From Pseudomonadota bacterium (lineage in GTDB: Bacteria; Pseudomonadota; Alphaproteobacteria; SP197): 64,000 nucleotides of DNA. Below are positions 28,773-44,226 of this stretch, one piece after another. Where the stretch lies: the NCBI GenBank assembly GCA_039028155.1, contig JBCCIS010000023.1, positions 1 to 64,000 on the forward strand. The letters run 5' to 3'. Numbering within the stretch: position 1 is the first letter of the stretch; each line of letters starts with the position of its first letter. The position numbers were made by a program, and so were the translations under genes. Under the pieces are notes generated by a model. It had not been told where the DNA came from and made no database searches. It was given only the letters and a program-made list of their open reading frames with translations.

Positions 28773-29411
28773 TCAAGAGCGCCGGCGTGCTGCAGCTTTC
28801 TTCCGGTCACCTTTCTTGGGCTTGGCCTTTGCCTGGTCGGCCTGCCGGCGGGACCGCCATTCATCCTTCAGCATGCAGAACTGGTACTGATCCAACCGTC
28901 CCTCGCCATAGAACGATCTCCACTGCTCCTTCAGGATGCCTTCCAGATGCCAACCTTGCGTCTTGTAGTTGAAAACGGACGGGAAGTTGCGCACGAGCGG
29001 ACGGCCGATGACCTTCTCAACACCGCGCACCCGAAAGAAATGATCGAGCAAGGCGGCGCGGCACTCGTTGACGACCTTGCTGCCCCAGTAGCCGGTGTCG
29101 CCGATCATCACATCAATGGTCGCCGTTTGATGAATGTCGTCAATGCTCGCGTAGAAATTGCCAACATGCGCTTTGGATCGACGCTCAAAGATGCCGATCT
29201 GGAAGTTCTTGATTCCGTCGACGGCTCGGATGATCGCCTCCAGCTGCTGGACGGTCAATTGGCTCGTCGGTTTGTTGAGAGGCTTCATCACACCGGGGTC
29301 CGCCAACCAGGAGACGAACCGCTCGGTTGCGTCACTTAGTTCCAGCGATCGCAAGAGAAATCGCTCGGTGGTGAGTCGGATCGGAACCGGTTTCTTGTCT
29401 GTCGGCGGCAT
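28773..29411 (-). CDS. GNAT acetyltransferase, paralog C
   Basis: A 212-residue RimJ/RimL/PseH-like N-acyltransferase. It shows RLTTERFLLRSLELSDA, VSWLADPGVMKPLN, FQIGIF, the acetyl-CoA region IGDTGYWGSKVVNECRAALLDHFF and NFPSVFNYKTQGW. It shares these blocks almost residue for residue with the two GNAT genes upstream, so the three arose by duplication. A Lys/Arg-rich C-terminal tail (about 190-212) is unique to this copy. The preceding gene encodes an acyl carrier protein, suggesting an acyl-ACP donor. Acceptor unknown. Confidence 0.85.
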   Translation of the reverse strand: MPPTDKKPVPIRLTTERFLLRSLELSDATERFVSWLADPGVMKPLNKPTSQLTVQQLEAIIRAVDGIKNFQIGIFERRSKAHVGNFYASIDDIHQTATIDVMIGDTGYWGSKVVNECRAALLDHFFRVRGVEKVIGRPLVRNFPSVFNYKTQGWHLEGILKEQWRSFYGEGRLDQYQFCMLKDEWRSRRQADQAKAKPKKGDRKKAAARRRS

Positions 29412-29445
29412 GTTGGTGTCTGCTTATCCTGTGCGGCGGCGTCGG

Positions 29446-29682
29446 TTAAGACGCTTTGCCGTTAAGGATCGCCGCGACGTCGTCGAGCGATTCAATCGCG
29501 ATAATCTGATCGGGCCCAAGCTCGTGACCCAGCTTGGCTTCGATCGCCAGGATCAGGCGCAGGTGGGCCAGGCTGTCCCAGGCTTCGGGATCGCCGAGAC
29601 GGGCCTGTGCCGAGACGGTCTCCGGCTCCACTTCAAGCGCTTCGGCAAGGATCTGTCGTGCTGAATCAAGACTTGCTGTCAC
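29446..29682 (-). CDS. Acyl carrier protein-like protein
   Basis: A 78-residue carrier protein. The phosphopantetheine site is S37 in EAWDSLAHLRLI, followed by the helix III region SLDDVAAIL. It differs from the fatty-acid ACP consensus (DSLDxVE), so it is a specialised carrier. The GTG start overlaps the end of GNAT paralog B by 17 bases, so the two are probably co-translated. With the AMP-forming ligase two genes further upstream it could be loaded with an acyl or aminoacyl group that the GNATs transfer. Confidence 0.82.
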   Translation of the reverse strand: MTASLDSARQILAEALEVEPETVSAQARLGDPEAWDSLAHLRLILAIEAKLGHELGPDQIIAIESLDDVAAILNGKAS

Positions 29683-30274
29683 TGTTCTTACCCTTCCGCA
29701 TCGCGAACCACTCGTCCTTTAGGAGGCCGAACTGGAATTGATCGAGCCGACTGTCATCGAGGTTGGACTGCAGCTGACCCTTGAACGTCCCTTCCAGACG
29801 CCAACCCTCGGCCTTGTAATTGAACACCGACGGAATGTTGCGCGCCGGCGGTTGGCCGATGGCCTTCTCAGCGCCCAGAACGTCGAAGAAATGATCGAGC
29901 AAGACCGCGCGTGTCTCCGCGACGACATTGCTGCCCCAATAGGACTTGTCGCCAATCAGAACGCTGAACGTCACCGTCTTGTTGTGCCAGTCTGCGTCGA
30001 TGAAGTAGAGCCCGATGAACTTGCTGGGATGGCGCACAAAAATGCCGATCAGAAAGTCGTTGATGCCATCGCGCGACAGGATTGTGCCGCGCAACTCGTC
30101 GCGACTTAGCGACCTGGCGACCTGATTGAGCGGCGTCATGACCTCGGGGTCCGCCAACCAGGTGCTGTAAGGCTCGCCCGCATCCTCCGGCCGGAGCGAA
30201 CGCAACAGAAAGCGATCGGTCATCAACCTGATCGGCTTCGGTTTGGGCCGAGACCGCACCCTACCCGCCGGCAT
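29666..30274 (-). CDS. GNAT acetyltransferase, paralog B
   Basis: About 202 residues. Blocks RLMTDRFLLRSLRPEDA, STWLADPEVMTPLN, FLIGIF, IGDKSYWGSNVVAETRAVLLDHFF, ARNIPSVFNYKAEGW and LLKDEW are shared with the two neighbouring GNATs. I chose the ATG at 30274; the frame is open up to 30358, but that extension has no counterpart in the paralogs. The end overlaps the ACP start. Probable N- or O-acyltransferase of a sugar or protein. Confidence 0.85.
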   Translation of the reverse strand: MPAGRVRSRPKPKPIRLMTDRFLLRSLRPEDAGEPYSTWLADPEVMTPLNQVARSLSRDELRGTILSRDGINDFLIGIFVRHPSKFIGLYFIDADWHNKTVTFSVLIGDKSYWGSNVVAETRAVLLDHFFDVLGAEKAIGQPPARNIPSVFNYKAEGWRLEGTFKGQLQSNLDDSRLDQFQFGLLKDEWFAMRKGKNSDSKS

Positions 30275-30387
30275 GGCCCACCTCGGCTGCGACGGGCCAA
30301 AACGCATCGCGGCGCACGCCATCGACCGGCTGAGCATAGGCAACCGGCGGCACGCCACGCGCGTCGGTTGATGTCGCGGGTGAACCG

Positions 30388-30993
30388 TCAGACACCACCA
30401 TCACCCACGATCGACTCACGCAGCTCCAGCCACTCTTCCTTCAACAAACCGAACTCGTACTGGTCCAACCGGCTTCCATCGTCAATCGATCGGATCTGCC
30501 CCTTTAGAACGCCTTCCAGTCGCCAGCCTTCCGCCTTGTAATTGAACACGGACGGAATGTTTCGCGCAGGCGGACGGCCAACAGCCTTTTCCATGCCGCG
30601 TTGCAGAAAGAAGTGATCAAGCAAGGCAGCGCGGGTTTCAAGGACGACCTTGTCGCCCCAATAGGCCTTGTCACCAATCATCACGCTGAACAGACCGTTG
30701 CGGTTCTCCCAGTCCATGGTCACATAGTAGACACCGATAAAATCGCCAGTGCGGCGCGTGAAGATGCCAATCTGAAACCTGTTGATGCCGTCGCAATCGG
30801 CTATGGAAGCTGCCCAAACTTCACGTCGAGGGTTGTCATCGACCTCCTGATTGAGTGGACCCATGACCTCGGGGTCGGCGACCCAATCGAGAAATGGCTT
30901 CTTTGCATCCTCCGGCCGAAGTGAACGCAAGACAAAACGTTTGGTAACCAGCCTAATCGGCTTGGCCTTCTCGCGTCGTCGTGTCGGCTGCAT
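30388..30993 (-). CDS. GNAT acetyltransferase, paralog A
   Basis: A 201-residue GNAT protein of the same trio. It has RLVTKRFVLRSLRPEDA, WVADPEVMGPLN, FQIGIF, IGDKAYWGDKVVLETRAALLDHFF, ARNIPSVFNYKAEGW and LLKEEW. It is closer to paralog B than to C by eye. It follows the AMP-ligase gene (68 bases apart) and precedes paralog B. No signal peptide, so cytoplasmic. Similar RimJ/RimL-type GNATs act in nonulosonate (PseH) or tailoring pathways, but no nonulosonate genes are in the window. Confidence 0.85.
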   Translation of the reverse strand: MQPTRRREKAKPIRLVTKRFVLRSLRPEDAKKPFLDWVADPEVMGPLNQEVDDNPRREVWAASIADCDGINRFQIGIFTRRTGDFIGVYYVTMDWENRNGLFSVMIGDKAYWGDKVVLETRAALLDHFFLQRGMEKAVGRPPARNIPSVFNYKAEGWRLEGVLKGQIRSIDDGSRLDQYEFGLLKEEWLELRESIVGDGGV

Positions 30994-31060
30994 CGTCCGC
31001 CTCTATGCGCAATGCCTGGCGCGGTGCGCCGGCTGTCGTTGTGGGGCGGCGATCATCGCC

Positions 31061-32503
31061 CTAGTCGGAAGCAAAGCAAGCCTCCGCAACCACGTTGCGG
31101 TTTATCTTGCCACGGTCGGTTTTGGGGATGGCGTCAAGAACGAACCACTTCTCCGGATTCTTCTCGCGCACCAGGCGCTCTCGGCACCAGGACTTTATGT
31201 CGTCGATGGCGTGGCCCTGGTCGATGACGACAGCGACACAAACCATCTCCCCCACGATTGGATCAGGCGCGCCAAACGCGCAGGCTTCGACAACACCGTC
31301 GTGGCGCTCCAGAAGCAGATCGATATCTTCTGGATGGACCTTCATGCCGGCGCGGTTGATCTCATACTTCTCGCGCCCCGTGAGCCGGACGACGCCACCC
31401 TCGACGTGACCGATGTCGCCGGTATGAAACCAGCCGTCTTTCAGCACCGCGGCCGTCAAGTCATCAAGCTCGAAGTAGCCGGCCATGAGCGAGGGAGCCT
31501 GAACGACGATCTCACCATCGCCTTCGGCGGCAATGGATCCGTCGTCCTTTAGCACGCCGGCCTGGCCGCCCCACATGCGTCCGACCAAGCCATCCTGAGG
31601 CTCAAACGCCGCCGCCGACGCGCCGCCGATCCAGTTCGCCGTTTCCGTGATGCCATACATGTTCACGACATTTCGTGTGCCGCACCACTCGATGATCTTT
31701 GACCACAAGTCCGCCGAGAGTGGCGCGGACCCGACGTGTACCCTACGAAGAGAGCCGCCGGACGGCGGCTTCGACATCTTGAGCGCCATTTTCCACAGCG
31801 CGGGAACGGAACTCATGAACGTGATCGCGTGCTCGTCGATGACAGCGCCCAGCTGCATGACCGCACGCGCATCACTGCCGGCGATCAGTGTGACGTCGCC
31901 GCCGTGGAGCAGCGGCGTCAGGCTGTTGCCGATCAGGCCGTGGCCAAAATGGGTCGGCAGGGTGCATAGCGTTCGGCGAAAATCGTCGCGGCCGATAAAC
32001 GTCTCGTTCAGCGCCAGGCGCGCCACCAAAGAACGAAACGTGTGGACAACCCCCTTTGGCGTGCCGGTCGTGCCGGACGTAAAGAGCATAAGGGCGGGAT
32101 CATCAAGCGTGGCCCGGCGATCAGTACGCGGCGCCGGATCAGGACCGACCGACGCGCCGAAATCAACGACCGGGATGCTGGACATGGCGCGGGCACGATC
32201 GAGATCCCCATCAACCAGGACAAGCTTGGCCCGAACATGACCGATGACCGCATCCACCTCATCGGCCGTCAACCCGGGATTGAGGACAGCGACCGCCGCG
32301 CCAGCAGACCAGGCGGCCAGCAGATCGGCAAAAAAAGCGCCGGACCCGCCCTGCCACAGCGCCACGGTGTCACCGGGTCCGATACCGCCTTCGCTCAAGG
32401 CAAGACAGCGTTCCCGGGCTTCCGAAGCGATCTTCTCGCCCTGCCAGCGTGTCCCGGTCGCTTGGTCGGTAACGGAGCCCAGATTGTCAGCAAGAATAAG
32501 CAT
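31061..32503 (-). CDS. AMP-forming acyl/aminoacyl ligase (ANL superfamily)
   Basis: A 480-residue adenylate-forming enzyme. The AMP-binding P-loop FTSGTTGTPKG is at 141-151, NMYGITETANW is the A5 core, HTGDIGHVEGGVVRLTGREKYEINRAG covers A7-A8 (hinge) and is followed by the catalytic lysine K466 in DRGKINR. It would activate a carboxylate as an adenylate and load CoA or, more likely here, the carrier protein two genes downstream. The chain is shorter than typical acyl-CoA synthetases (about 520-550), as for stand-alone loading ligases. It is the first gene of the GNAT/ACP cluster. Confidence 0.87.
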   Translation of the reverse strand: MLILADNLGSVTDQATGTRWQGEKIASEARERCLALSEGGIGPGDTVALWQGGSGAFFADLLAAWSAGAAVAVLNPGLTADEVDAVIGHVRAKLVLVDGDLDRARAMSSIPVVDFGASVGPDPAPRTDRRATLDDPALMLFTSGTTGTPKGVVHTFRSLVARLALNETFIGRDDFRRTLCTLPTHFGHGLIGNSLTPLLHGGDVTLIAGSDARAVMQLGAVIDEHAITFMSSVPALWKMALKMSKPPSGGSLRRVHVGSAPLSADLWSKIIEWCGTRNVVNMYGITETANWIGGASAAAFEPQDGLVGRMWGGQAGVLKDDGSIAAEGDGEIVVQAPSLMAGYFELDDLTAAVLKDGWFHTGDIGHVEGGVVRLTGREKYEINRAGMKVHPEDIDLLLERHDGVVEACAFGAPDPIVGEMVCVAVVIDQGHAIDDIKSWCRERLVREKNPEKWFVLDAIPKTDRGKINRNVVAEACFASD

Positions 32504-32893: not shown

Positions 32894-33301
32894 TTAACCG
32901 CCAGACAAAGCCTCCAGGGCGTCCGACAGGTCGCCGTTCACGTCCTGGTTGGACTCGGCATTGGCATCCTGATCGCCAAGGCTGTCCTGGCCCATGTCGA
33001 TGATCGCGGTAGCGCCATCACCGATAATGATGCAGGACGAGTTGGCGGTCGCGGAAGACTGCGACTCATCGGAACCGCACAGCAGGACGTCGCCGCCGCC
33101 GCCGCCGGATGACACGACCGGCTGCTGGGGTGAGAACAGGCCTTCGTCGACCTGCTTCATCACCACGGCGCTGCTCAGGCCGTCGCGGTTGCTGTTGCTG
33201 TAAGCGCGTTCGAACATCTGCGCGCCGGCCGGCGCGGCAAGCACGCCCATGGCGGTCGTAACGGCCAGGGCGGCGACGATGTTCTGAAACTTTGTTACCA
33301 T
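32894..33301 (-). CDS. Small exported protein, HfaA/curlin-like candidate
   Basis: A 135-residue exported protein with a signal peptide ending LAAPAGAQ. The mature chain starts MFERAYSNSNRDGL and ends with an Asn/Asp/Gln-rich part (CIIIGDGATAIIDMGQDSLGDQDAN) that resembles the pattern of holdfast-anchor HfaA and curlin repeats (hydrophobic pairs, then Q/N/G). Two cysteines flank the Ser-rich stretch. I chose the second of two adjacent ATGs because AGGAG is seven bases before it. It lies downstream of the HfaB- and HfaD-like genes. The assignment rests on pattern and context. Confidence 0.5.
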   Translation of the reverse strand: MVTKFQNIVAALAVTTAMGVLAAPAGAQMFERAYSNSNRDGLSSAVVMKQVDEGLFSPQQPVVSSGGGGGDVLLCGSDESQSSATANSSCIIIGDGATAIIDMGQDSLGDQDANAESNQDVNGDLSDALEALSGG

Positions 33302-33447
33302 CATTCTTCTCCTTCCGAACAGGATTTGCCGATCCAAGAATGTTTGCGGGAGAGGAGGGTCGCCGGGATGCAACAGCTGCTGCATCCCGGCTTCCCAACA
33401 CTTGCGGATGATTAAACCTTCATCCGAACCTTACACCTCACACAGTC

Positions 33448-34521
33448 TTACTCGTCGCCACAGTTGACGGCGCAGACGGTGATGTTGGAGACGTTACCAA
33501 CGGCCGTGGCGGTGACCGAAGTCAGAGCACCGTCGAGCGTGCCGAGGTCAACGTAGTTGTCGATGACGTGCAGACCCAGGTAAGCGTTGGCCGTAACGTC
33601 GGCATACGCGAACTGCGTCAGGTCAGCGATAACGACCGCATCATCAGGCGTGGCGGCATCAACGTTGATGCTGTTGGAGTTGGCAACAGCCGTCGCGGAG
33701 ATGTCAGCCTGAGCCTGCTGGATGTACCAGGAACCAGCGTTGGCCGAGATGTTGGCCTTCTCCAGCTGGCCGTTGAGGGCCAGGTAGAGCAACGCATCAG
33801 CGAGCTGGGTGTGCTCATTCTTACCGCTGAGCCAGTACGGCAGGTAGGCATGGTCGCCATCACCCACGACGAACTGACCTTCGTGGACCATGACGGCCAC
33901 GTCAGAGTCGATGCTCTCGGCGTTGCCGATCGCGGTCGCGGTGATCTCAACCAACGGCAGCTGGTCAAGCGTGAACGGATCCGGGACCAGAACTTCCTGG
34001 TAGCCGCTCCACTCGAAGCCACCATAGAGCTTGCCACCGACATGACCCTTGGTCTTGCCATAGAACGGATCGATGTCCTTCACGTAGTGCGGCTCGATCC
34101 ACTCCTTGCAGCCCTTGCCCCACCAGCACTTCTTCTCTTCGGTCAGGTAGGCGATCTCTTCGTCCAGGACCTTGCCCTGGGTGTGGCCAGAGAAGTAACC
34201 GCTGAACTTGCCTTCGAACGAGCCCGAACCGCCGCTTTCCAAGCGAACGATGTCATAACCCGGCGCGGCAGGCTTGTGCAGGACGGCCTCGACCCAAGCG
34301 TTGGCCTTCACGTCGCCAACGAAGATCTGAAGCTTCTCGACCTGGACCAGACCACTGGGGTCGAATTCCGGATCGATCTTAACCTTGATGAGGACCTTCT
34401 CGTAGATGTCGGCGTACCAGTCCCAATCGACCGTATCGAAAGCGGAAGCCTGGGTGCTCGCCAGACCCATGGCAACGGCGGAGGCGCCGGCCAGAAGGGT
34501 CGCTTTACCGAACGTATTCAT
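33448..34521 (-). CDS. HfaD-like repeat adhesin, exported
   Basis: About 357 residues. A signal peptide ends in STQASA. The N-terminal 200 residues hold no known domain but are rich in Gly, Lys and aromatic residues, with a Cys pair (KCWWGKGC). The C-terminal half contains repeats with the pattern T/S-A-T-A-I/V-G/A-N: ITATAIGNAESI, ISATAVANSNSI and VTATAVGNVSNI. These resemble curli-like beta strands and Caulobacter HfaD. Directly downstream of the HfaB/CsgG-like lipoprotein gene (24 bases). I prefer the ATG at 34521 on ribosome-site spacing; 34530 is possible. Confidence 0.62.
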   Translation of the reverse strand: MNTFGKATLLAGASAVAMGLASTQASAFDTVDWDWYADIYEKVLIKVKIDPEFDPSGLVQVEKLQIFVGDVKANAWVEAVLHKPAAPGYDIVRLESGGSGSFEGKFSGYFSGHTQGKVLDEEIAYLTEEKKCWWGKGCKEWIEPHYVKDIDPFYGKTKGHVGGKLYGGFEWSGYQEVLVPDPFTLDQLPLVEITATAIGNAESIDSDVAVMVHEGQFVVGDGDHAYLPYWLSGKNEHTQLADALLYLALNGQLEKANISANAGSWYIQQAQADISATAVANSNSINVDAATPDDAVVIADLTQFAYADVTANAYLGLHVIDNYVDLGTLDGALTSVTATAVGNVSNITVCAVNCGDE

Positions 34522-34544
34522 AACTACCATTCTCCTTTCAGGAT

Positions 34545-35363
34545 TTAGAGCTGCTCGAGGTACGACGCCATATGGTCTGTCTCAACGAGACGGCAGCTCT
34601 CGCTCGCGGGCAGACCAAGGAATTCCGTCATGATCTGGTAAACACCCATCTCAACGACGGAACGGACGCCGAGCTGGAGCGGTTCATTCCTGATCCGTCC
34701 GGCGTCAAACTCAACCAGGGTGTCGCCGAAGAAGCGGAACACATTCGCTTCGACTTCGAACCCGTAAATCTGTTTCTGGAGGCTCACCACAAACGGCACC
34801 GCGAAGGTGCGCGAGCTGATCACGCGCATGTCGAGTGCAACGTTGATCACCACCGTGCGAGCGCCGCCGCCAATGCCGTCGATAAACAGCTGGGCGCCTT
34901 CGCTGACGATGTTGTAGTTGAGCTCGGTCAACGCGCCGGCGATGACAAAATCGCTGGCGGGAAGGTCGGTGTATTCATCAGCCGAGCGCGACAGGCGGCC
35001 CTGTTCGGCCAACTGGACTTCGGCGAGGGGGATGCGCAGGTCCAGGCGCTCAACCAGGTTCGCCTTGTCGGTCTTGGCAAGCGCGCTGATGACCATCTCG
35101 GAAACGCCCTGCGACAGCGCGTAGCCGTTCTCGTCATAGTTGATCTGGCCCGTCTTATCGGCGACTTCACCCACGGCGAAGACCGGCAGATGATTACCCT
35201 GGACACCGCCCAACGCGCGCAGACACTGACTGTAAGGCGTGTCGTTGCTGGTAACCGGGAAGCTGAAGGCAGGCTGCACGCCTTCCTTCGGGTAGGGGCC
35301 GGTGTTGCAAGCCGTTACAACAAGAGCAACAGCCGCAATTGCCGCAGGAACGAATAGACGCAT
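34545..35363 (-). CDS. hfaB: CsgG/HfaB-family outer-membrane secretion lipoprotein
   Basis: A 272-residue lipoprotein. The signal MRLFVPAAIAAVALVVTAC gives lipid attachment at C19. The mature protein matches the CsgG/HfaB family: VFAVGEVADKTGQINYDENGYALSQGVSEMVISAL, LVERLDLRI, ASDFVIAGALTELNYN, GGGARTVVINVALDMRVISSRT and GVRSVVEMGVYQI. In E. coli CsgG forms the pore that exports curli; in Caulobacter HfaB exports holdfast anchors HfaA and HfaD. It heads an operon with HfaD- and HfaA-like genes. The symbol is given by family; HfaB suits the neighbours better than CsgG. Confidence 0.82.
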   Translation of the reverse strand: MRLFVPAAIAAVALVVTACNTGPYPKEGVQPAFSFPVTSNDTPYSQCLRALGGVQGNHLPVFAVGEVADKTGQINYDENGYALSQGVSEMVISALAKTDKANLVERLDLRIPLAEVQLAEQGRLSRSADEYTDLPASDFVIAGALTELNYNIVSEGAQLFIDGIGGGARTVVINVALDMRVISSRTFAVPFVVSLQKQIYGFEVEANVFRFFGDTLVEFDAGRIRNEPLQLGVRSVVEMGVYQIMTEFLGLPASESCRLVETDHMASYLEQL

Positions 35364-35970
35364 TTTGCTGGACCCTCCTCAAACCTCGGTCACGCTCGCA
35401 GCCGGGACCGGGTACGCCGGATCGCCTCCGGCAATGACGTGAAATCTCGTGCGTTGAAGCTTACGGAAGAGGTCCAGAAAGGTAAGAGTTAAGAAGTACT
35501 AATCGTGCTGGAAAAGGGATTACCCCCTTCTCTCCTCGTAATTAAAAAGGATAGGCTACTATCTAAAGGGTAATACTGTTCTTAATATTTAGTTAACGTT
35601 CATCCAAAGTCGTAGACCTTTTTACCCGTGGTGTAGTCACGGATTTTTGACAAACTGCGGGTCGTGGTGTTCGCCTGTTGCGACACCTATCTAATGTTGG
35701 CCGGTTAAGAAGCTTGGATACTCGTCAAAAGCCATACCGTCCGATCGATAGGATGGGCGCGATCTGCCTCAAGACCGCGCTCGGCCGGCTGCCGTGACGT
35801 CGCCATGAAGAAGACGTCTTGGCCAGTCACCATGTTACCCGGTCGCGATTGCCGCGAGGCAACCGCGCTCGTCATCCGCCCAATAAAGGTGCCGCACAAA
35901 AAAACCAGGCACCACTGTGCGCGAACCAACGTAATGCAAGAATTAGGGACCAATTCTGAACAGGGACTGC
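35364..35970. promoter_or_regulatory. AT-rich divergent control region of the adhesin operon
   Basis: About 600 bases separate hfaB from the divergent LuxR-type gene. The middle (35470-35640) is clearly richer in A+T than its surroundings. ATTACCC (35519-35525) and GGGTAAT (35578-35584) form an inverted pair, and TTTTTACCC (35619-35627) recurs inverted as GGGTAAAAA at 38638-38646 upstream of the second regulator. No gene is supported in the interval. Confidence 0.45.
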
Positions 35971-36648
35971 ATGAGGATGCAAACAAGTGAAACAAGTGCG
36001 GCACGACCCCTCAATGTCGCCATCGTAGCCGAAGGCTCCACGCCAGAGCTCCAGCTTCAGCGGGCTATGGCCGAAGAGCACGGCATTCAACTCAATCAGG
36101 CCAAGCGCCTGTCGGACTTGCCGACGCAAGCCTCCGAGAACGGCCGCCCGAACGTCGTGATCGTTTGGCACACCAAACTGAACGACATGGAGTATGCCGA
36201 TCTGCTCAGGGTGTCGCGGCGCGCCACCATCGTCGTGGCGCTGAGGCGCGATGACCTGCTGCAGGCAACAAACCTTTTGTCGCTGGTCGATGCCTGGCTG
36301 TTCGTTGACGAGCAGCTGCCACTGACGGCCGAAGTCGCCAGGCTCAGCCTCGACGGCTATTGCCTGGTGCCGCCGTTCATGACGCCGTCCTTCACGGTGA
36401 CCGAACTGCGCCTTCAGCTGCTGGCATCGTTGACACCGACGGAACAGCAGGTTCTGGCGCTGCTTGGCGAAGGCAAGAGCAATCGGACGATATCCGAAGA
36501 ATTGGATATGACCGAAGCCAACGTGAAGTACGTCGTCAGGAGCCTTTTGGGTAAATTGCAACTGCGAAACAGAACTGAAGCCGCTGTTTTCGCCGCCATT
36601 CAAGCATTCGTGCCGGCCGCACGATCATATGAAACCAGCTTGAATTGA
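35971..36648 (+). CDS. LuxR-family regulator with degenerate receiver (CsgD-like)
   Basis: A 225-residue regulator. The C-terminal helix-turn-helix (about 154-209) begins LTPTEQQVLALLGEGKSNRTISEELDMTEANVKYVV and ends RNRTEAAVFA, as in CsgD and NarL-type proteins. The N-terminal 140 residues look like a receiver domain, but the phosphoacceptor position (VVIVWHTKL) has Trp/His rather than Asp and the lysine is missing. This matches the phosphorylation-independent design of CsgD, the E. coli curli activator. It is divergent from the hfaB-like operon, so control of that operon is likely. Confidence 0.83.
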   Translation: MRMQTSETSAARPLNVAIVAEGSTPELQLQRAMAEEHGIQLNQAKRLSDLPTQASENGRPNVVIVWHTKLNDMEYADLLRVSRRATIVVALRRDDLLQATNLLSLVDAWLFVDEQLPLTAEVARLSLDGYCLVPPFMTPSFTVTELRLQLLASLTPTEQQVLALLGEGKSNRTISEELDMTEANVKYVVRSLLGKLQLRNRTEAAVFAAIQAFVPAARSYETSLN

Positions 36649-36797
36649 CGATCTAAAGGGGTGGATCAAGGTTATTAGGCGGGATTGCATACCGGTTGTT
36701 CGCAATCCACTTGATTATTTGGTCCAGATTACGGCTTAATTTGCGATGAGGGGGGCCAGAAGGTTCGGCCCCGTCCATGTACGGCAGGAGAGAACCG

Positions 36798-37340
36798 ATG
36801 CGATTTCGTCTCGTCTTGGCAGCCATGATTGGTGCAGTTGCCTTGCTCCATATGGCACCGGCCAGCGCCCAGTTGAACAACGAGCCGTTCTCGTTCGACA
36901 CGCCCGATGGCGGTGTCGGCATGAGCACGGCGGCGCGCCAGGCCATCATCAACCAGCAACTTTTCAACGCGACGCCCGACAACATCATGCGCGCCGCGGA
37001 CGGAACGCTGCTGACGATCACCCAAAACAACCGCGGCGGCCGTGTGCCGATCGTGACCAGCGCCAGCGGCGAGATAATCCCGCAGTTCCGCGGACGCGGC
37101 TTGGACCTGGGCGGTCTGTTCTTTGAGAACGTCGGCACGGGCAGCGGCGACGGTGGTCAGTTGTTGCTCGGCTTCGGTTCGAGTTCCGGCATCACCGTGA
37201 CAAGCTGGACGTTCCGCCTGGTGGCGGCAACAACCGGTGGCGGCGGCTATCCGTCGTTCGGTGGCGGCTATGGTTATGGCGGCGGATCCGCGGATGCCAT
37301 CAACACCTGGACATCACAGGTCTTCGGCCTGGGTGGATAG
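36798..37340 (+). CDS. Glycine-rich exported protein of unknown function
   Basis: A 180-residue protein with a signal peptide (MRFRLVLAAMIGAVALLHMAPASA). The mature chain has NTPD/GGVGM-like and RAADGTLLTITQNNRGG segments, then a Gly-rich end (GGGGYPSFGGGYGYGGGSADA). I recognise no family. A ribosome site AGGAG precedes the ATG at 36798. It lies between the two LuxR-type regulators next to the adhesin operon, so it could be a minor component of the surface structure; this is inference only. Confidence 0.62.
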   Translation: MRFRLVLAAMIGAVALLHMAPASAQLNNEPFSFDTPDGGVGMSTAARQAIINQQLFNATPDNIMRAADGTLLTITQNNRGGRVPIVTSASGEIIPQFRGRGLDLGGLFFENVGTGSGDGGQLLLGFGSSSGITVTSWTFRLVAATTGGGGYPSFGGGYGYGGGSADAINTWTSQVFGLGG

Positions 37341-37400
37341 TATCGGACGGTAAGTACCGGCGCCGAGCCTGGCTGGGCGCCCTCTTCTGCCAACATTTTC

Positions 37401-37448
37401 GCCGACGGTAGCGGTAGTGCGGTCAATGGCCGCAATACCACCGTCGGC
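37401..37448 (+). terminator. Extended stem-loop after the glycine-rich gene
   Basis: GCCGACGGT (37401-37409) pairs perfectly with ACCGTCGGC (37440-37448), and an inner GCGG/CCGC stem lies between. No T-run follows, so it may be a terminator of the factor-dependent type or a structured RNA end. Confidence 0.45.
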
Positions 37449-37662
37449 GAAGTGATTCCGACAGGGCGATTCGTGTTTTCAGCGGCCGATGCCGCAACGA
37501 GACGGCTGCCACGCGACGACGGTTGATATCGGGCTGATGTATCTCGGGCTAGGCCCGTGCACCTCAAGATCCGGTTGAGGGCACACTGACAGGCCGTGGT
37601 CGACCCACAACACTAAGGCACTTGATCGGACGCGCCCGTCGTTGGCAGCCCCACAAAAGAGA

Positions 37663-37691
37663 ATGCCGCCCCTGTTTCCTAGGGGCGGCAT
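37663..37691 (-). terminator. Rho-independent terminator of the NarL-like gene
   Basis: ATGCCGCCCCT and AGGGGCGGCAT form a perfect 11-bp stem with a 7-base loop. On the minus strand the stem is followed by TCTCTTTTGTG. It begins about 30 bases after the stop of the NarL-like gene. Confidence 0.7.
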
Positions 37692-37720
37692 CCTCGTAAG
37701 CGCACAAGTGTTGGGTTCCC

Positions 37721-38404
37721 TCAGTTGGGCGATGAGGGTCCCATCATCAAGCCGGCATCCGCAGCAATGCCGTTGTTCAGCGCCCAGATCGCCGCTTGCG
37801 TGCGGTTCTGTGCGTTGATCTTGCGCAGGATGCTTTTCACGTGAACCTTGATGGTCGCTTCGGTCACGCTAAGGCGGTTCGCAATCATCTTGTTGGAGGC
37901 TCCCTCGACGAGGCAGCCGAGGATCTGAAGCTCGCGGTCCGACAGGTTGGCACCTTCCGCGGTCGCCGTGTTCGCCATCGTCGGCATCGCCGAGGTACCG
38001 CGGAGAATCAGCGGAATAAGTTGAGACGGGAACACGCGCTCGCCGGCCAGAACCAAGTTAAGCGACCCGATCAGGGCTTCCGTCGAGATGTCCTTCAGCA
38101 GGTAGCCGTCAACGCCGGCGCTGAAGTATTCAGCAAGCGGCCGCGGCTGCACCGACGTGGTCAGCACGACGACCTTCATGTTGGGTGCGCGCTCGCGCAG
38201 CTCGATCAAACGCTCTTTCAGCCCCTCGGTCTCACGCGGCAGATCAAGCAGCAGCAGATCAGGCGGGCTGGACTCAGCCATGCCATCATCAAGACCGCTA
38301 ATGTCACCAGCGTGACCCAGGACATCGAAATTCGTATCGCTCAAGAGACGAACCATGCCCTCTCTTGAGAGGCGGTTGGAGTCGACAATAAACGTGGTAC
38401 TCAT
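37721..38404 (-). CDS. NarL/FixJ-family response regulator
   Basis: A 227-residue regulator. The receiver has D8 (FIVDSN), the phosphoacceptor D54 in LLLLDLPRE and K104 in GYLLKD, so it may be phosphorylated. The LuxR helix-turn-helix (about 153-209) begins LSDRELQILGCLVEGASNKMIANRLSVTEATIKVHVK. The ATG at 38404 has an AGGGG site. It is the second LuxR-type gene near the adhesin operon. The end RNRTQAAIWA resembles CsgD. No partner kinase is in the window. Confidence 0.88.
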   Translation of the reverse strand: MSTTFIVDSNRLSREGMVRLLSDTNFDVLGHAGDISGLDDGMAESSPPDLLLLDLPRETEGLKERLIELRERAPNMKVVVLTTSVQPRPLAEYFSAGVDGYLLKDISTEALIGSLNLVLAGERVFPSQLIPLILRGTSAMPTMANTATAEGANLSDRELQILGCLVEGASNKMIANRLSVTEATIKVHVKSILRKINAQNRTQAAIWALNNGIAADAGLMMGPSSPN

Positions 38405-40315
38405 GGGATTTCCCCTTTTTGGACTGTCAGTCCGAACCATCGATTTAGATTTCCTATCCACAATGCTCGGACCAGCTTTACTTACTCAGCGACCCCACAA
38501 CGATTTTCGGTAGCTCTTTGCCTTTTATTTTGCTTCCGAAACAACTCGAAAAAGTCCTCCTACCCGATCGACATATCTATTACCTTCCACTCTGATAGGT
38601 TCTCAGCTATTCATCAGATGAACAACTATGCTTAGTGGGTAAAAACTCTCTATTCTGACTAAGCAACATCCTGATGTGGAAATTTCATCGCAGCCAAAAA
38701 CACTACTTTATCTCCGTTGGAGAACCCTTCCGGCTGAGATGAACACTACCAATGAATAGACCTCGACCACAGGAGTTAATCCATCCGTAACTCACGTTGC
38801 CCACAGGGATAGGCAACGCATTGCGTGAACAAACGCGGCACGCCGCTTCCGGGGTGCTCGTCCTCACCCCGATCGCGGCGTGTCCGCCATACGGTTTGCG
38901 ATGTAGGCCACATGGTCATACCCCCTCCGATGCATGAACCGTGCCACTCCGGATCTCACATTTCCAATCGTCAGATCTAGCTTATCCATTTCGATTGGAA
39001 ATCCGCTCAAACAATCCGGTTTCCCCATAGCACATGTTAGATCGCAACCTACAGTTCCAAGAATCCGGTCATCTACTTAAGTAGAACTACGTAAGGGTAG
39101 GATGCCCAATCGCGCAATCGCCTGGGTCAGACCGTGAACCGCATTCATGCATGTCCGGCCCGCCTTGGAAACCCTCGACATTTGGCCACTCACCATCACC
39201 GTCCGACCGTTTGGCCACCGATCTTTGGGTGACGCGCGCGTGAATTGCCCCATCAATGACCAAATGCCCGGCGTCCAGGGGCGGACGCGGCCGTACCGAC
39301 CCATTGGTGAGCGCTTGACGCGCCACACGTCAACACAAGCTCGTCCAGTCATCTTTTTCGCACGGCCCCACCAACCTATTGATAAAAAACAACTTTATGG
39401 ACGTCGCCCAGCCGTGCGCCAGAGTACTGCCAGTCCGGAAGCGCATTGGCGTCATCGTCGACGGACCCTCATGCCACCGCCGTGATCGGGTAAACGTCAG
39501 ACATCAACGCAATGTGCGGCAACCTAGCGCGATCACAGAAAGTTGATGGCATAAAATCAGCTACGTAAGGACATCCACGGCGCACGTCCCAGCCTCCAAT
39601 TGAAGGAGGTTGAGGCGACATCGACTCCGGCACTGGTGTGAGAGACACCGAGAATGGCGCGCGTTGCGTTTGGTATCATGACATCAAAACAGCACGCCGC
39701 ACCACTCTTGCTATCTCTGATTGTATTTCGATGCTGGCGACACCATGCATATCGATAGAGAAGTCCCATACCGGGACAAATGGGTGCGGCAACAGTCGGG
39801 CCCACACCCGCAACTCACGTCAGGAGCGTTGTCCGTTCTTCGGTGACATCCCCGATGGGTTGGGTCGATACGGTCGAATCAGTTTCGGGCGGCCGCTGCG
39901 TTCCGTATCAGGACAACCGACCATACCTATTTTCTCAAATGGGGATGTAAACTGGAGCAAGCAGTGGCGGTCCCCCGCCGAACCGCCCATCGATGGGTCG
40001 GCGGCTCGCCTTGCATGAACGCCGAACCATGCCACGCCGAAGCTCAAGTAATTCCGCTTGTGGCCGTAAGTAAATCACCACACAGCCTCTGCGGCGCCGC
40101 CTTGCCGGTTTCGATCGTCTTGCCGTCTTGAACGCGCGAAATCGCGAACCCGATACGGCGCAATCCGCGGCAGCGTCCCGGTATCACAAGTCATTGACCG
40201 GCATCGCGCCATGATCAACGGATATGTGAGGCGCTGTTACTTGTCCGGAGCGGCCTGGAGACGGACGATCCAACTTGGGAGCGGTGGTCGGAGACTGGCG
40301 AGCGAGAGGGCGAAC
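38405..40315. other. 1.9-kb region without a supported gene
   Basis: No open frame here has homology I recognise, a good ribosome site or the codon pattern of the neighbours. The left part (38430-38760) is AT-rich relative to the rest of the window, and likely holds the promoter of the NarL-like gene. The remainder could be a decayed island or carry unrecognised RNA genes. GGGTAAAAA at 38638-38646 mirrors a motif upstream of hfaB. Confidence 0.5.
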
Positions 40316-40914: not shown

Positions 40915-42666
40915 TTAGTTTGACGGTGCGGCACCGATGAGATGCAACAGGTCCGCCACGTCGTTGCAGACGTGGACGCCCATGGCACGCAGGTCCGCTT
41001 GCACATCCACCGGTGTCGATTCGCCATCGACATCCTGGTTGAGCGTGCCGCCCATCGCGACAGTCACATCAAGATCACGGGCCACGATCTCATCCTGCAG
41101 CTGTCGCGCATAGGTCAGTGCCATGCCGTTGTGGGTAGAGATCAAGATCGCCGTCGCGCCCGCCTCCAGGGCCAGATCGGCAAACTCATCCGGATCGACG
41201 CTTGTGCCGGCGACAACCGGCTCGATACCGGCCATGGTCAACCCTTCGACGATCAGGAACATGGCGTATTCGTGGATATCGGTTGATCCCACCACGAGTC
41301 GGATCTGATCCTTTTCGGGAATGCCGGCGGAACTGAAGATCGTTTTCACACGAGACCGCCGTTCGACATAGTCGAGGTAGGTATCGGTCGGCACCTCCGG
41401 CACGTACATTTCCGCATCCGACATCGGCAGCTCGCCGACACCCCATCGGTTTTCGATGGCGGCGGCGCCCATGCGCCGGACCGTCAAGAGGATCTGCAGG
41501 GGATCGGACATATCCACACCGAGTTCCTCAAGCCCCTGCATGATGTTCTCATAGAACCGGCGCCCGCCATCGATCATCCGCGCGCTCAAGGCCTCGATAT
41601 GCGGCCAGTTCACACTCTCCATCAGGCGCGGCGCATCCCGGGCGATTCGATGGGCGACCGTCTGGGCCTGAACGATTTCCTCCCAGGACGGCACGCGCAA
41701 GGCCTCGGTGACGGGAATCGAGAGGGTTGCCGCACCGCTCTTGGTCTTGAGTTGCGCCAGCATCAGATAGAGATCGTCGATCGAGAGGACCGCAAAGTTC
41801 TCGTCGATCTCCGGAACGTAGGCCGTCGTGTTGCAATGGTAGAAGGAGTTATAGGTACCTTCCGGTTTGATCGCCTCCAGCGACAAGATAACGGCTGCCT
41901 TGTTGACGGGGTTATGAGTCAATCCGCCGTAGGAAATTGAAAGGCGCGCGCCGACAACCTCGTTGATGACATAGCGTTCAAACAGGGCCCAACCGATATA
42001 GGAGCAATAGTCCTTGAAGGTCGCGCAAAAGCCGTCCTCCAGATACGACTGCATCATCGCATCGTCGTCGCGTTTCGATGCCATCAGACCCAGTGCTTTG
42101 ACCATCTCGGCCATTTGCTCGACGTCGTCACCCGGCCAACCCGGGTACTTCCAGGCGAACTGCGACATGTTGCCGATGTAGTTGACGCCGGCCTCCAACG
42201 CGTTGCGCGCGTTGCTGAGGGACATGGGCGAGCCGATCATCATGTCGCCCAGATTGGGCTGGATCGGCACGGTATTCGCGGTCGCGTGCCAATCATCCTT
42301 GGTCTCCAGCATCGGGCCGGTTTCCTTTGGCGCGCGCTCCCAAAGCTCCGGCGGCAACCCCATCCGGCGATCCATCTGCATCTGATAGCGATCGATTCGA
42401 AAGCCGCGCCTTTCGGACTCGTTCCAGATGTTCTCAAGCGCCTGCGCCGTTTCCGCCCAGGTCTGCATGCCGATGTTGAGGGAGGTCATCAACCGGCCTT
42501 CCTCGACCATTTTCTTTTTGTAGGCGACCTCCGAACGAACGCCGTGGTCCTGACACAACAAACTTCGGCCAACGGTTACGTCGTCGCCAATCCGGCGCCC
42601 CTCTTCCAGTAAGGCGAGGCCGTCGGGGCAGTCACGCGGCAGATAAGACTCAAGTTGGGATGTCAT
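40915..42666 (-). CDS. glmE: Glutamate (methylaspartate) mutase subunit E fused to a B12-binding domain
   Basis: A 583-residue coenzyme-B12-dependent mutase. Residues 1 to about 450 match the catalytic TIM-barrel subunit GlmE (MutE): MTSLNIGMQTW, ANTVPIQPNLGDMMIGSPMSLSNARNALEAGVNYIGNMSQF and EGTYNSFYHCNTTAY. Residues about 454-583 resemble the small subunit GlmS: the DxHxxG motif is D463-I-H465-E-Y-A468 (Gly to Ala), and ISTHNG and AMGGTLN correspond to the cobalamin-tail pocket. Separate E and S chains are the usual form. The enzyme rearranges glutamate to 3-methylaspartate, but no methylaspartate ammonia-lyase is nearby, so the substrate may differ. Overlaps glmL (ATGA). Confidence 0.85.
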   Translation of the reverse strand: MTSQLESYLPRDCPDGLALLEEGRRIGDDVTVGRSLLCQDHGVRSEVAYKKKMVEEGRLMTSLNIGMQTWAETAQALENIWNESERRGFRIDRYQMQMDRRMGLPPELWERAPKETGPMLETKDDWHATANTVPIQPNLGDMMIGSPMSLSNARNALEAGVNYIGNMSQFAWKYPGWPGDDVEQMAEMVKALGLMASKRDDDAMMQSYLEDGFCATFKDYCSYIGWALFERYVINEVVGARLSISYGGLTHNPVNKAAVILSLEAIKPEGTYNSFYHCNTTAYVPEIDENFAVLSIDDLYLMLAQLKTKSGAATLSIPVTEALRVPSWEEIVQAQTVAHRIARDAPRLMESVNWPHIEALSARMIDGGRRFYENIMQGLEELGVDMSDPLQILLTVRRMGAAAIENRWGVGELPMSDAEMYVPEVPTDTYLDYVERRSRVKTIFSSAGIPEKDQIRLVVGSTDIHEYAMFLIVEGLTMAGIEPVVAGTSVDPDEFADLALEAGATAILISTHNGMALTYARQLQDEIVARDLDVTVAMGGTLNQDVDGESTPVDVQADLRAMGVHVCNDVADLLHLIGAAPSN

Positions 42667-44102
42667 GATGCTCGTGCCTCCCGTGGTCGGCGTGATGCAA
42701 TGGAACAATCAAGCGTTTGGTCCGCCAGCGCGCGTGCCAGATCGGGTGCAAGGCGGCCCAGCAGGCCGATGGCGTAAAGCGCGTAACTGTGATCGACGGC
42801 AATGGCTGGGTCGCGAGGCGATTGCGCGCCCTGAATGTCGCCCAACGCAGCGTACATGAGGGCGTGCGGATCCCGCCCGTGGCGAAACACGCCGCCGGTC
42901 GCCACAAGAACCCGCGTCGGACGAAGGTCCTTTCCTGACACGTGATACCGATCGCCCCACGGGCGATGGCGTACGACGACCTTGCCGGCATGGCGCTCGA
43001 TGGCGGTCGCGGCACCGGCCTGTGCCAACACACAATCCACCGCACGGTCATGGTCGGATTGGGGCAGGAACGACGGTGTTTCACGGCGCCGCTCCGCCTC
43101 GCGACCGAGGTCGCAGTTCAATTGCTGCTCCGCCGCAGCTCTTGCCGAAGACGACATCGCCTCCACCGTGCCTGGTGCGCCCCAGCGCATACCAAGATCA
43201 CCTTCGACGGTGCGCATGACCTCGGGCTCCGGCACCTCTGCGGCCCTGTGATCGTCGCGCACGCCACCCAGGGAATGCACATCGGTGGTCGCACCACCCA
43301 GGTCGACAAAAACAACCGGCCCCTCGTTTGCCGGTACGAAGGGCAGCGCCCGACTGACCGCCAGCGGCGTCGGCTCGCACTCCGTCGCAAAGGCTGCCAT
43401 CATTCCATCAAGGCCCTTGGCATGGGTGATGTGACGCAGAAACAAATCGCGGACCGCCTCGCGCGTCGCCGTCATCGCTATCTCGCCGGCACGCGGAAAC
43501 ACGTTGTCGACAACCCGCACATCACGCACGCCGTCCTGAAGCAGCGCGACAGCCTCGCCGGACACCGCCGCATTGCCGGCCACAATGAAACCCCGCGTCG
43601 ACCGCAGCCCAGCCAGCATGCGGGCGTTGTGCAGCAGAGCTTCGCTATTGCCGCCATCCAGACCGCCCGAAAGCAGAACCAGATGCGGCGTTGCGGCATC
43701 AATGCGTCCGATTGCTTCGGTGTCGAGGAAACCGTGTTCGTCGGCAACGACCTTTGCACCGGCGCCAAACGCCGCCAGTGCGCCGGCGCGGCCCGACAGG
43801 TTGGCGGTCAGTCCGACCGACGCCATGCGCAGCCCACCCGCCGCGCTGCTTGATGCCAGCGCCCAGTCATGACCGCCACGCAACGGGGCCGGCAATGCAT
43901 CCAGGGCGCCGTTCACTCCCTTCATGACGTCGTCATCAATCGTCGTCGGTGCCTGCGCACGCCCCAGCATGGCTCCATCTGGACCGATCACCATGACCTT
44001 GGTGAAGGTCGAGCCGATGTCGATCAGAAGGCCGCGATCCCAGGCGCGCCCGTCACACAGGAAGACGTCGGCTCGATCCTTGGTGCGCCTCGTGTTCGTC
44101 AC
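42663..44102 (-). CDS. glmL: Mutase reactivase GlmL (MutL family)
   Basis: About 479 residues of an ASKHA-type ATPase that reactivates the B12 mutase by exchanging damaged cobalamin. LLIDIGSTFTKVMVI is the phosphate-binding loop, PVVFVDLGGATTDVHSLGG the second phosphate loop, and LLSGGLDGG and RVLVATGGVF further family features. I prefer the GTG start at 44102, with GGTGGGAG six bases before it; the frame is open to an ATG at 44147 with no family match. It precedes and overlaps glmE and faces the IclR gene across a palindromic operator. Confidence 0.85.
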   Translation of the reverse strand: MTNTRRTKDRADVFLCDGRAWDRGLLIDIGSTFTKVMVIGPDGAMLGRAQAPTTIDDDVMKGVNGALDALPAPLRGGHDWALASSSAAGGLRMASVGLTANLSGRAGALAAFGAGAKVVADEHGFLDTEAIGRIDAATPHLVLLSGGLDGGNSEALLHNARMLAGLRSTRGFIVAGNAAVSGEAVALLQDGVRDVRVVDNVFPRAGEIAMTATREAVRDLFLRHITHAKGLDGMMAAFATECEPTPLAVSRALPFVPANEGPVVFVDLGGATTDVHSLGGVRDDHRAAEVPEPEVMRTVEGDLGMRWGAPGTVEAMSSSARAAAEQQLNCDLGREAERRRETPSFLPQSDHDRAVDCVLAQAGAATAIERHAGKVVVRHRPWGDRYHVSGKDLRPTRVLVATGGVFRHGRDPHALMYAALGDIQGAQSPRDPAIAVDHSYALYAIGLLGRLAPDLARALADQTLDCSIASRRPREARAS

Positions 44103-44226
44103 ATCAACTCCCACCTCATCCCGGCAGCAGGGGCAGAGCAACGGCAATCATGCCGCCATGCGCCAGGCAACGAGCCAGAAATCGTAGGTGTGGGGGTGAG
44201 ACATCGCAACAAATATAGACTATCGT

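Follow-up and report, generated by a model that had tools for sequence, protein, structure and literature searches.

The 64,000-nucleotide stretch of alphaproteobacterial DNA analyzed here (the window) carries at positions 32894-38404 a locus of six genes, which we label P1-P6 and which probably (at roughly 60%, by our estimate) encodes a secretion-and-anchoring system of the CsgG/HfaB type, sister to Caulobacter HfaABD, through which a surface adhesin or amyloid would be exported and anchored at the pore under CsgD-like control. HfaA, HfaB and HfaD make up the holdfast anchor of Caulobacter, and CsgD, a regulator with a degenerate receiver, controls curli in E. coli. Five features are shown directly by the sequences: homology of its proteins to Hfa components, conservation of the genes as a block, an RNA hairpin between P2 and P1, an N-terminal motif common to P1 and P5, and fast divergence of P2 and P1. 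The features of the locus are as follows.

32894..33304, minus strand: P1, small exported protein of 136 amino acids with an HfaA-like C-terminal part, S-x-A-x-(G/A)-N ... Q-x-x-x-G-x-Q-x-A (relatives; profile match to HfaA)
33194..33220, minus strand: mature N-terminus of P1, QMFERAYSN (family QMxEkPWsF), a proposed pore-docking segment (motif count; profile match)
33362..33391, minus strand: RNA hairpin between P2 and P1, 13-base-pair (bp) stem, loop AGCT (stem count; compensatory changes; fold z-score)
33448..34530, minus strand: P2, exported TATA(I/V)GN-repeat protein, HfaD-like, 357-360 amino acids (relatives; profile match to HfaD; AlphaFold2)
34545..35363, minus strand: P3, predicted outer-membrane lipoprotein pore of the CsgG/HfaB family, 272 amino acids, lipobox Cys19 (Pfam; NCBIfam; alignment with solved CsgG; tree)
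35364..35970, no strand: AT-rich control region separating the divergent genes P3 and P4 (GC 48% against about 60% around)
35971..36648, plus strand: P4, LuxR/GerE regulator without a recognizable receiver (GerE E = 1.2e-14)
36798..37340, plus strand: P5, second small exported protein, 180 amino acids, mature start QLNNEPFSF, two C-terminal W-T helices (conserved in relatives)
36870..36896, plus strand: mature N-terminal motif of P5, QLNNEPFSF (family QLNNkPFSF; common to the P1 family)
37659..37695, minus strand: terminator-like hairpin after P6, 15 bp, palindromic, which could serve P5 too
37721..38404, minus strand: P6, NarL-type response regulator (Response_reg E = 6.2e-11; GerE E = 4e-20)

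An earlier note on this DNA had recognized a CsgG/HfaB-type lipoprotein with a C19 lipobox, an exported T-A-T-A-I/V-G-N repeat protein, two LuxR-type regulators, an AT-rich divergent control region and a gene order B-D-A unlike the A-B-D of Caulobacter, and our analysis bears out each of these: P2 holds three copies of the motif, P6 combines a receiver with a GerE domain while P4 has GerE and no detectable receiver, GC content falls to 48% at 35500-35799 and to 42% at 38500-38799, and the order A-B-D is found in Hfa control loci. The small exported protein that it described as Q/N-rich is small and exported (P1), with Q/N-richness only moderate; P5 and the P2-P1 hairpin had been left without assignment.

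P3 begins with MRLFVPAAIAAVALVVTAC, in which the lipobox VTAC with its cysteine at residue 19 can be read. It belongs to the CsgG superfamily by its Pfam match (E = 2.1e-24, 86.4 bits against a gathering score of 20.8), and solved CsgG chains align to residues 13-246 (E = 7.6e-13). Its match to the NCBIfam HfaB equivalog NF037935 is strong (E = 2.1e-48) and, at 164.8 bits, does not reach the 300-bit cut-off of that model. In a phylogenetic tree, P3, HfaB and the pores of HfaB-OmpA fusions lie on one side and CsgG on the other. An origin of HfaB within the P3 family, hinted at by a quick tree, is unsupported, as P3 monophyly was not rejected (approximately unbiased test, p = 0.52). From these alignments we predict P3 to be an outer-membrane channel of the CsgG type.

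The exported proteins were compared by profile-profile alignment after removal of signal peptides, in all pairings of P1, P2, P5, HfaA, HfaD, CsgF, curlins and the protein encoded upstream in HfaB-OmpA loci; the reference Hfa loci have the order A-B-D, and NCBIfam NF037934 and NF037936 confirmed their HfaA and HfaD proteins. Two pairings, P1 with HfaA (86%, E = 5.5e-6) and P2 with HfaD (52%, E = 1.4e-4 in local mode; 83%, E = 1e-6 in global mode), came out on top, followed by P1-P5 (E = 7e-4) and P2-HfaA (E = 8e-4). The P1-HfaA score was 39 against 16 for the best of 60 column shuffles, and that of P2-HfaD 38 against a maximum of 21 among 60. The strict models told a different story: NF037934 gave no match on P1 at E<=1, whereas true HfaA controls matched at 1.7e-25 and 2.2e-21, and NF037936 matched none of 36 P2 proteins, compared with 1.8e-109 and 1.4e-12 for HfaD controls. 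No match to CsgF (PF10614) or to Curlin_rpt (PF07012) was found in the window's genome, and canonical curli there was rejected on this ground. Given the failure of the strict NCBIfam tests, the profile links and the lack of CsgF and curlin matches, we therefore place the locus, on sequence evidence, as a distant sister to the holdfast anchor of Caulobacter, neither curli nor a strict Hfa locus. The HfaB-, HfaD- and HfaA-like labels of the earlier note for P3, P2 and P1 accordingly survive as distant homology and not under the strict tests, which all three proteins fail; the hidden Markov model check that it had proposed for the exported proteins splits in the same way, between unmatched NCBIfam models and positive profile-profile links. 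Likewise, its description of the locus as holdfast-anchor-like holds as homology and does not extend to a Caulobacter-type anchor by strict criteria (165 bits for P3), and curli-like can be kept as a statement about mechanism only.

The resemblance to Caulobacter is that HfaA-HfaB-HfaD likewise combines a lipoprotein pore with a small HfaA-like and a repeat-containing HfaD-like exported protein, all three being homologous to those here at the profile level, and HfaB brings HfaA and HfaD to the Caulobacter cell surface (PMC6707917). The differences lie in the gene order, in the bit score of P3 and the unmatched HfaA and HfaD models, in P1, which is without the RDANGN segment of HfaA, and in the addition of P5, the LuxR pair and the hairpin in the window. 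The curli genes of E. coli (CsgDEFG-CsgBAC) share with the locus a CsgG-family channel and adjoining LuxR-type regulation, but the tests run here, which covered CsgF and curlin, detected no homologue of either, and the subunits come from another family. HfaB-OmpA fusion loci (L109-L111; genomes G053, G180 and G093) hold a third type of HfaB, a pore extended at length at its C-terminus (in L109 the extension looks OmpA-like by eye); upstream of it lies an exported protein starting ENRPWQFDT or ENPPWQFET, and there is no match to P2 or P1. The ENRPWQFDT start recalls the N-terminus of P1 and P5.

A scan of genome contigs recovered 51 alphaproteobacterial loci, nearly all with the order P3-P2-P1, and because the genes recur as a block the locus is not a chance assembly. 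Relatives of P1 and of P2 are each present in 50 of 52 loci, and P4, P5 (34-37 loci) and P6 are common companions of this core. When flanking open reading frames (ORFs) were clustered, no other neighbor proved comparably conserved, the next best being a secreted repeat protein in nine loci. Carriers include Rhodospirillales, Thalassospira, Pelagibius, Magnetospirillum, Azospirillum, Rhizobiales and plasmids of Vibrionaceae. On the latter, from Vibrio alginolyticus and Photobacterium (L138 and L139; NZ_CP071327.1 and NZ_CP082309.1), the shared unit P3-P2-hairpin-P1 is annotated as CsgG/HfaB plus hypothetical proteins, matches our P2 profile at E = 4e-50 and 2e-64 and our P1 profile at 8e-20 and 2e-19, and, unlike the window, has no P4, P5 or P6 adjoining. 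A 2026 study (PMC13391905) reports a host-associated variant of csgG confined almost entirely to V. alginolyticus, which might be the plasmid P3 gene. One genome (G030; L116, L117 and L118) has five P3 copies, several of them in tandem P3-P2-P1 units, among which is one P2-P1 pair with just a P3 fragment found.

Within this block P2 and P1 change fastest. Between the window and its nearest relative, L018, identity is 99% for P3, 95% for P5, 100% for P6 and nearly so for P4, compared with 54% for P2 and 70% for P1, and in other close pairs P2 or P1 also drops faster than P3 (for example, P3 94% versus P2 61%). Such fast divergence would fit exposed surface proteins. The distance of P2 and P1 (33448-34280 and 32894-33304 of the window) from their L018 counterparts may reflect replacement by recombination or else diversifying selection.

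P2 contains three ATA(I/V)xN repeats, ITATAIGNAESI, ISATAVANSNSI and VTATAVGNVSNI, and its AlphaFold2 model is rich in beta structure, with a predicted local distance difference test score (pLDDT) mostly above 90 across residues ~190-350. This model and its top PDB hit, the functional amyloid FapC (a weak match, detailed below), speak for the system proposed here. P5 matches nothing in Pfam or NCBIfam, its profile does not match that of HfaA, and its AlphaFold2 model is of low confidence (pLDDT 57) and too poor for use. What P5 does share is an N-terminal motif with P1. As the initial full-length similarity between the two was mostly signal peptide, the comparison was repeated on mature sequences, where the remaining similarity (the E = 7e-4 given above) is the N-terminal motif: the mature N-terminal profiles match across 10 columns (84%, E = 7e-6), with a Pro-aromatic-x-Phe start. 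A pattern for this motif, written post hoc, is matched by 29 of 40 P1 and 23 of 27 P5 proteins, as against 0/40 for P2, 0/41 for P3 and 1/109 for other exported-like ORFs. CsgF, which binds CsgG through its N-terminal Phe residues 24, 26 and 31 (PMC10133297), has an F-x-F directly after its cleavage site that the aromatic start of P1 and P5 resembles, a functional parallel in which homology to CsgF was not detected. By this analogy, the aromatic N-terminus may serve as a pore-docking segment.

The intercistronic hairpin, GCCGGGATGCAGC-AGCT-GTTGCATCCCGGC on the minus strand, is conserved in structure. A stem of at least 9 perfect Watson-Crick pairs (stems of 9-17 bp) occurs in 39 of 43 P2-P1 spacers and in 20 of 1720 dinucleotide shuffles (1.2%), and among same-length controls in 2/84 regions upstream of P3, 1/27 upstream of P5 and 11/43 downstream of P1, these last presumably terminators. 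All eight further spacers from other genomes carry the stem, and both Vibrionaceae plasmids have a 9-pair stem, one with a G-U pair. The stem sequence varies from genus to genus; the 13-bp stem of the window, set against that of L018, has two compensatory changes that affect both sides of the stem, plus one change of G-U to A-U, and the window spacer folds with z = -2.8. Rfam returned only RsmY, at chance level (E = 0.21). The hairpin likely sets how much P1 is made in comparison with P3-P2, via processing, stabilization or partial termination. That it is instead an ordinary intrinsic terminator, with P1 as a separate transcription unit, strikes us as unlikely but worth keeping in view: T-runs follow the stem in some relatives (e.g., L027, L035, L057 and L067), but are missing, as read by eye, from most, the window included. 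Moreover, P2 is followed by P1 after a short spacer in almost every locus, in keeping with a single operon that contains an element for processing, stabilization or partial termination.

Both LuxR genes accompany the locus in relatives: among 40 non-redundant loci, 15 hold a divergent P4-like gene and 30 a relative of P6. Pfam Response_reg gave no match on P4 at E<=1. The P6 receiver is partly degenerate, its acidic pair being incomplete (D-S) with the D, T and K sites kept, and the phosphoacceptor Asp is kept in only 11 of the 30 relatives; this tally used NarL and CsgD sequences solely as guides for the alignment, and the P6 residues are readable directly from the sequence. In relatives, the region upstream of P3 is enriched in the 8-mers AAAGTATT and ATTACCCC, which may mark a regulator site. 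By analogy to curli, control of the locus by CsgD-like LuxR proteins is plausible.

Put together, P3 would form the outer-membrane pore, through which P2, a long beta-rich repeat protein, would pass to become exposed adhesive or amyloid-like material. P1 and P5 would also be exported and may grip the pore through their aromatic N-terminal segments. At the cell surface they would act in the manner of CsgF or HfaA, as nucleators or tethers for P2 (or for a polysaccharide). P4 and P6 would turn the genes on, and the hairpin would make the amount of P1 independent of the amount of P3-P2.

The locus might alternatively be a true holdfast anchor, with P3-P2-P1 tethering a Wzx/Wzy-type polysaccharide exported elsewhere, as HfaBDA do. 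We consider this improbable: the distant homology of all three Hfa proteins speaks for it, as does a cluster of Poly_export, Wzz/AAA, Wzy_C and sugar-transferase genes on another contig of the genome, but such export genes are common and unlinked to the locus, the strict Hfa models are unmatched, genome G053 has a P3-P2-P1 system along with an HfaB-OmpA fusion locus elsewhere, and the operon is present on Vibrionaceae plasmids. A divergent curli system, with P2 and P1 as its curlin-like subunits and P5 in the place of CsgF, is far less probable still, and we disfavor it. The CsgG-family pore, the CsgD-reminiscent regulators and a weak fold match of the P2 model to the functional amyloid FapC, the top but non-significant match in the PDB (E = 0.0096, probability 0.44), would agree with it, yet the genome has no CsgF or Curlin_rpt match, P3 groups with HfaB away from CsgG, canonical curli and a P3-P2-P1 system occur at separate places in another genome (G109), and P5 was rejected as a CsgF homologue, the profile comparison being at background (E = 0.44).

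The last result also weighs against a secretion-and-anchoring system as we propose it, together with four others. The window's own copy of the P1 motif is degenerate (FERAYSN), keeping one aromatic of the pair; the fold search with P2 yielded no significant match; and a Gibbs search for a shared operator upstream of P3 scored 296 versus 274-285 for shuffles, and because this unconvincing motif stands barely above the shuffles we claim no operator. Finally, P2 lacks the N-terminal motif, and its route through P3 therefore rests on the analogy to HfaD and on operon context.

A small acyl-transfer cluster (28773-32503) adjoins the locus and is not conserved with it.

28773-29411 and 30388-30993: GNAT acetyltransferases (Pfam), with a similar ORF at 29666-30358 by eye
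29446-29682: acyl-carrier protein
31061-32503: AMP-binding ligase

ORFs at 40915-44147 resemble, by eye, a glutamate mutase set.

The conserved operon is apparently undescribed: a search covering open papers and few subscription ones, so that absence is no proof, found no description of it, and a 2012 survey of curli systems mentions neither Hfa nor holdfast. The conserved P2-P1 hairpin, the aromatic motif shared by P1 and P5 and the sharp divergence of P2 and P1 are new here. We give even odds to the view that the operon represents a third widespread CsgG-type branch beside curli and the holdfast anchor, one with an HfaBDA-like operon, pore-docked partners bearing a shared aromatic N-terminal address, a stoichiometry set by a structure-conserved mRNA hairpin, fast-diversifying exposed subunits and movement on plasmids between classes of Proteobacteria. 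The operon yields one clear prediction, that of the aromatic N-terminal address, which like the RNA element could be tested in culturable strains, and it provides comparative material on how HfaA and HfaD recognize HfaB. The Caulobacter holdfast anchor has so far been seen as a specialty of stalked bacteria; the occurrence of a related operon across many groups and on plasmids suggests a far broader class of pore-anchored surface systems.

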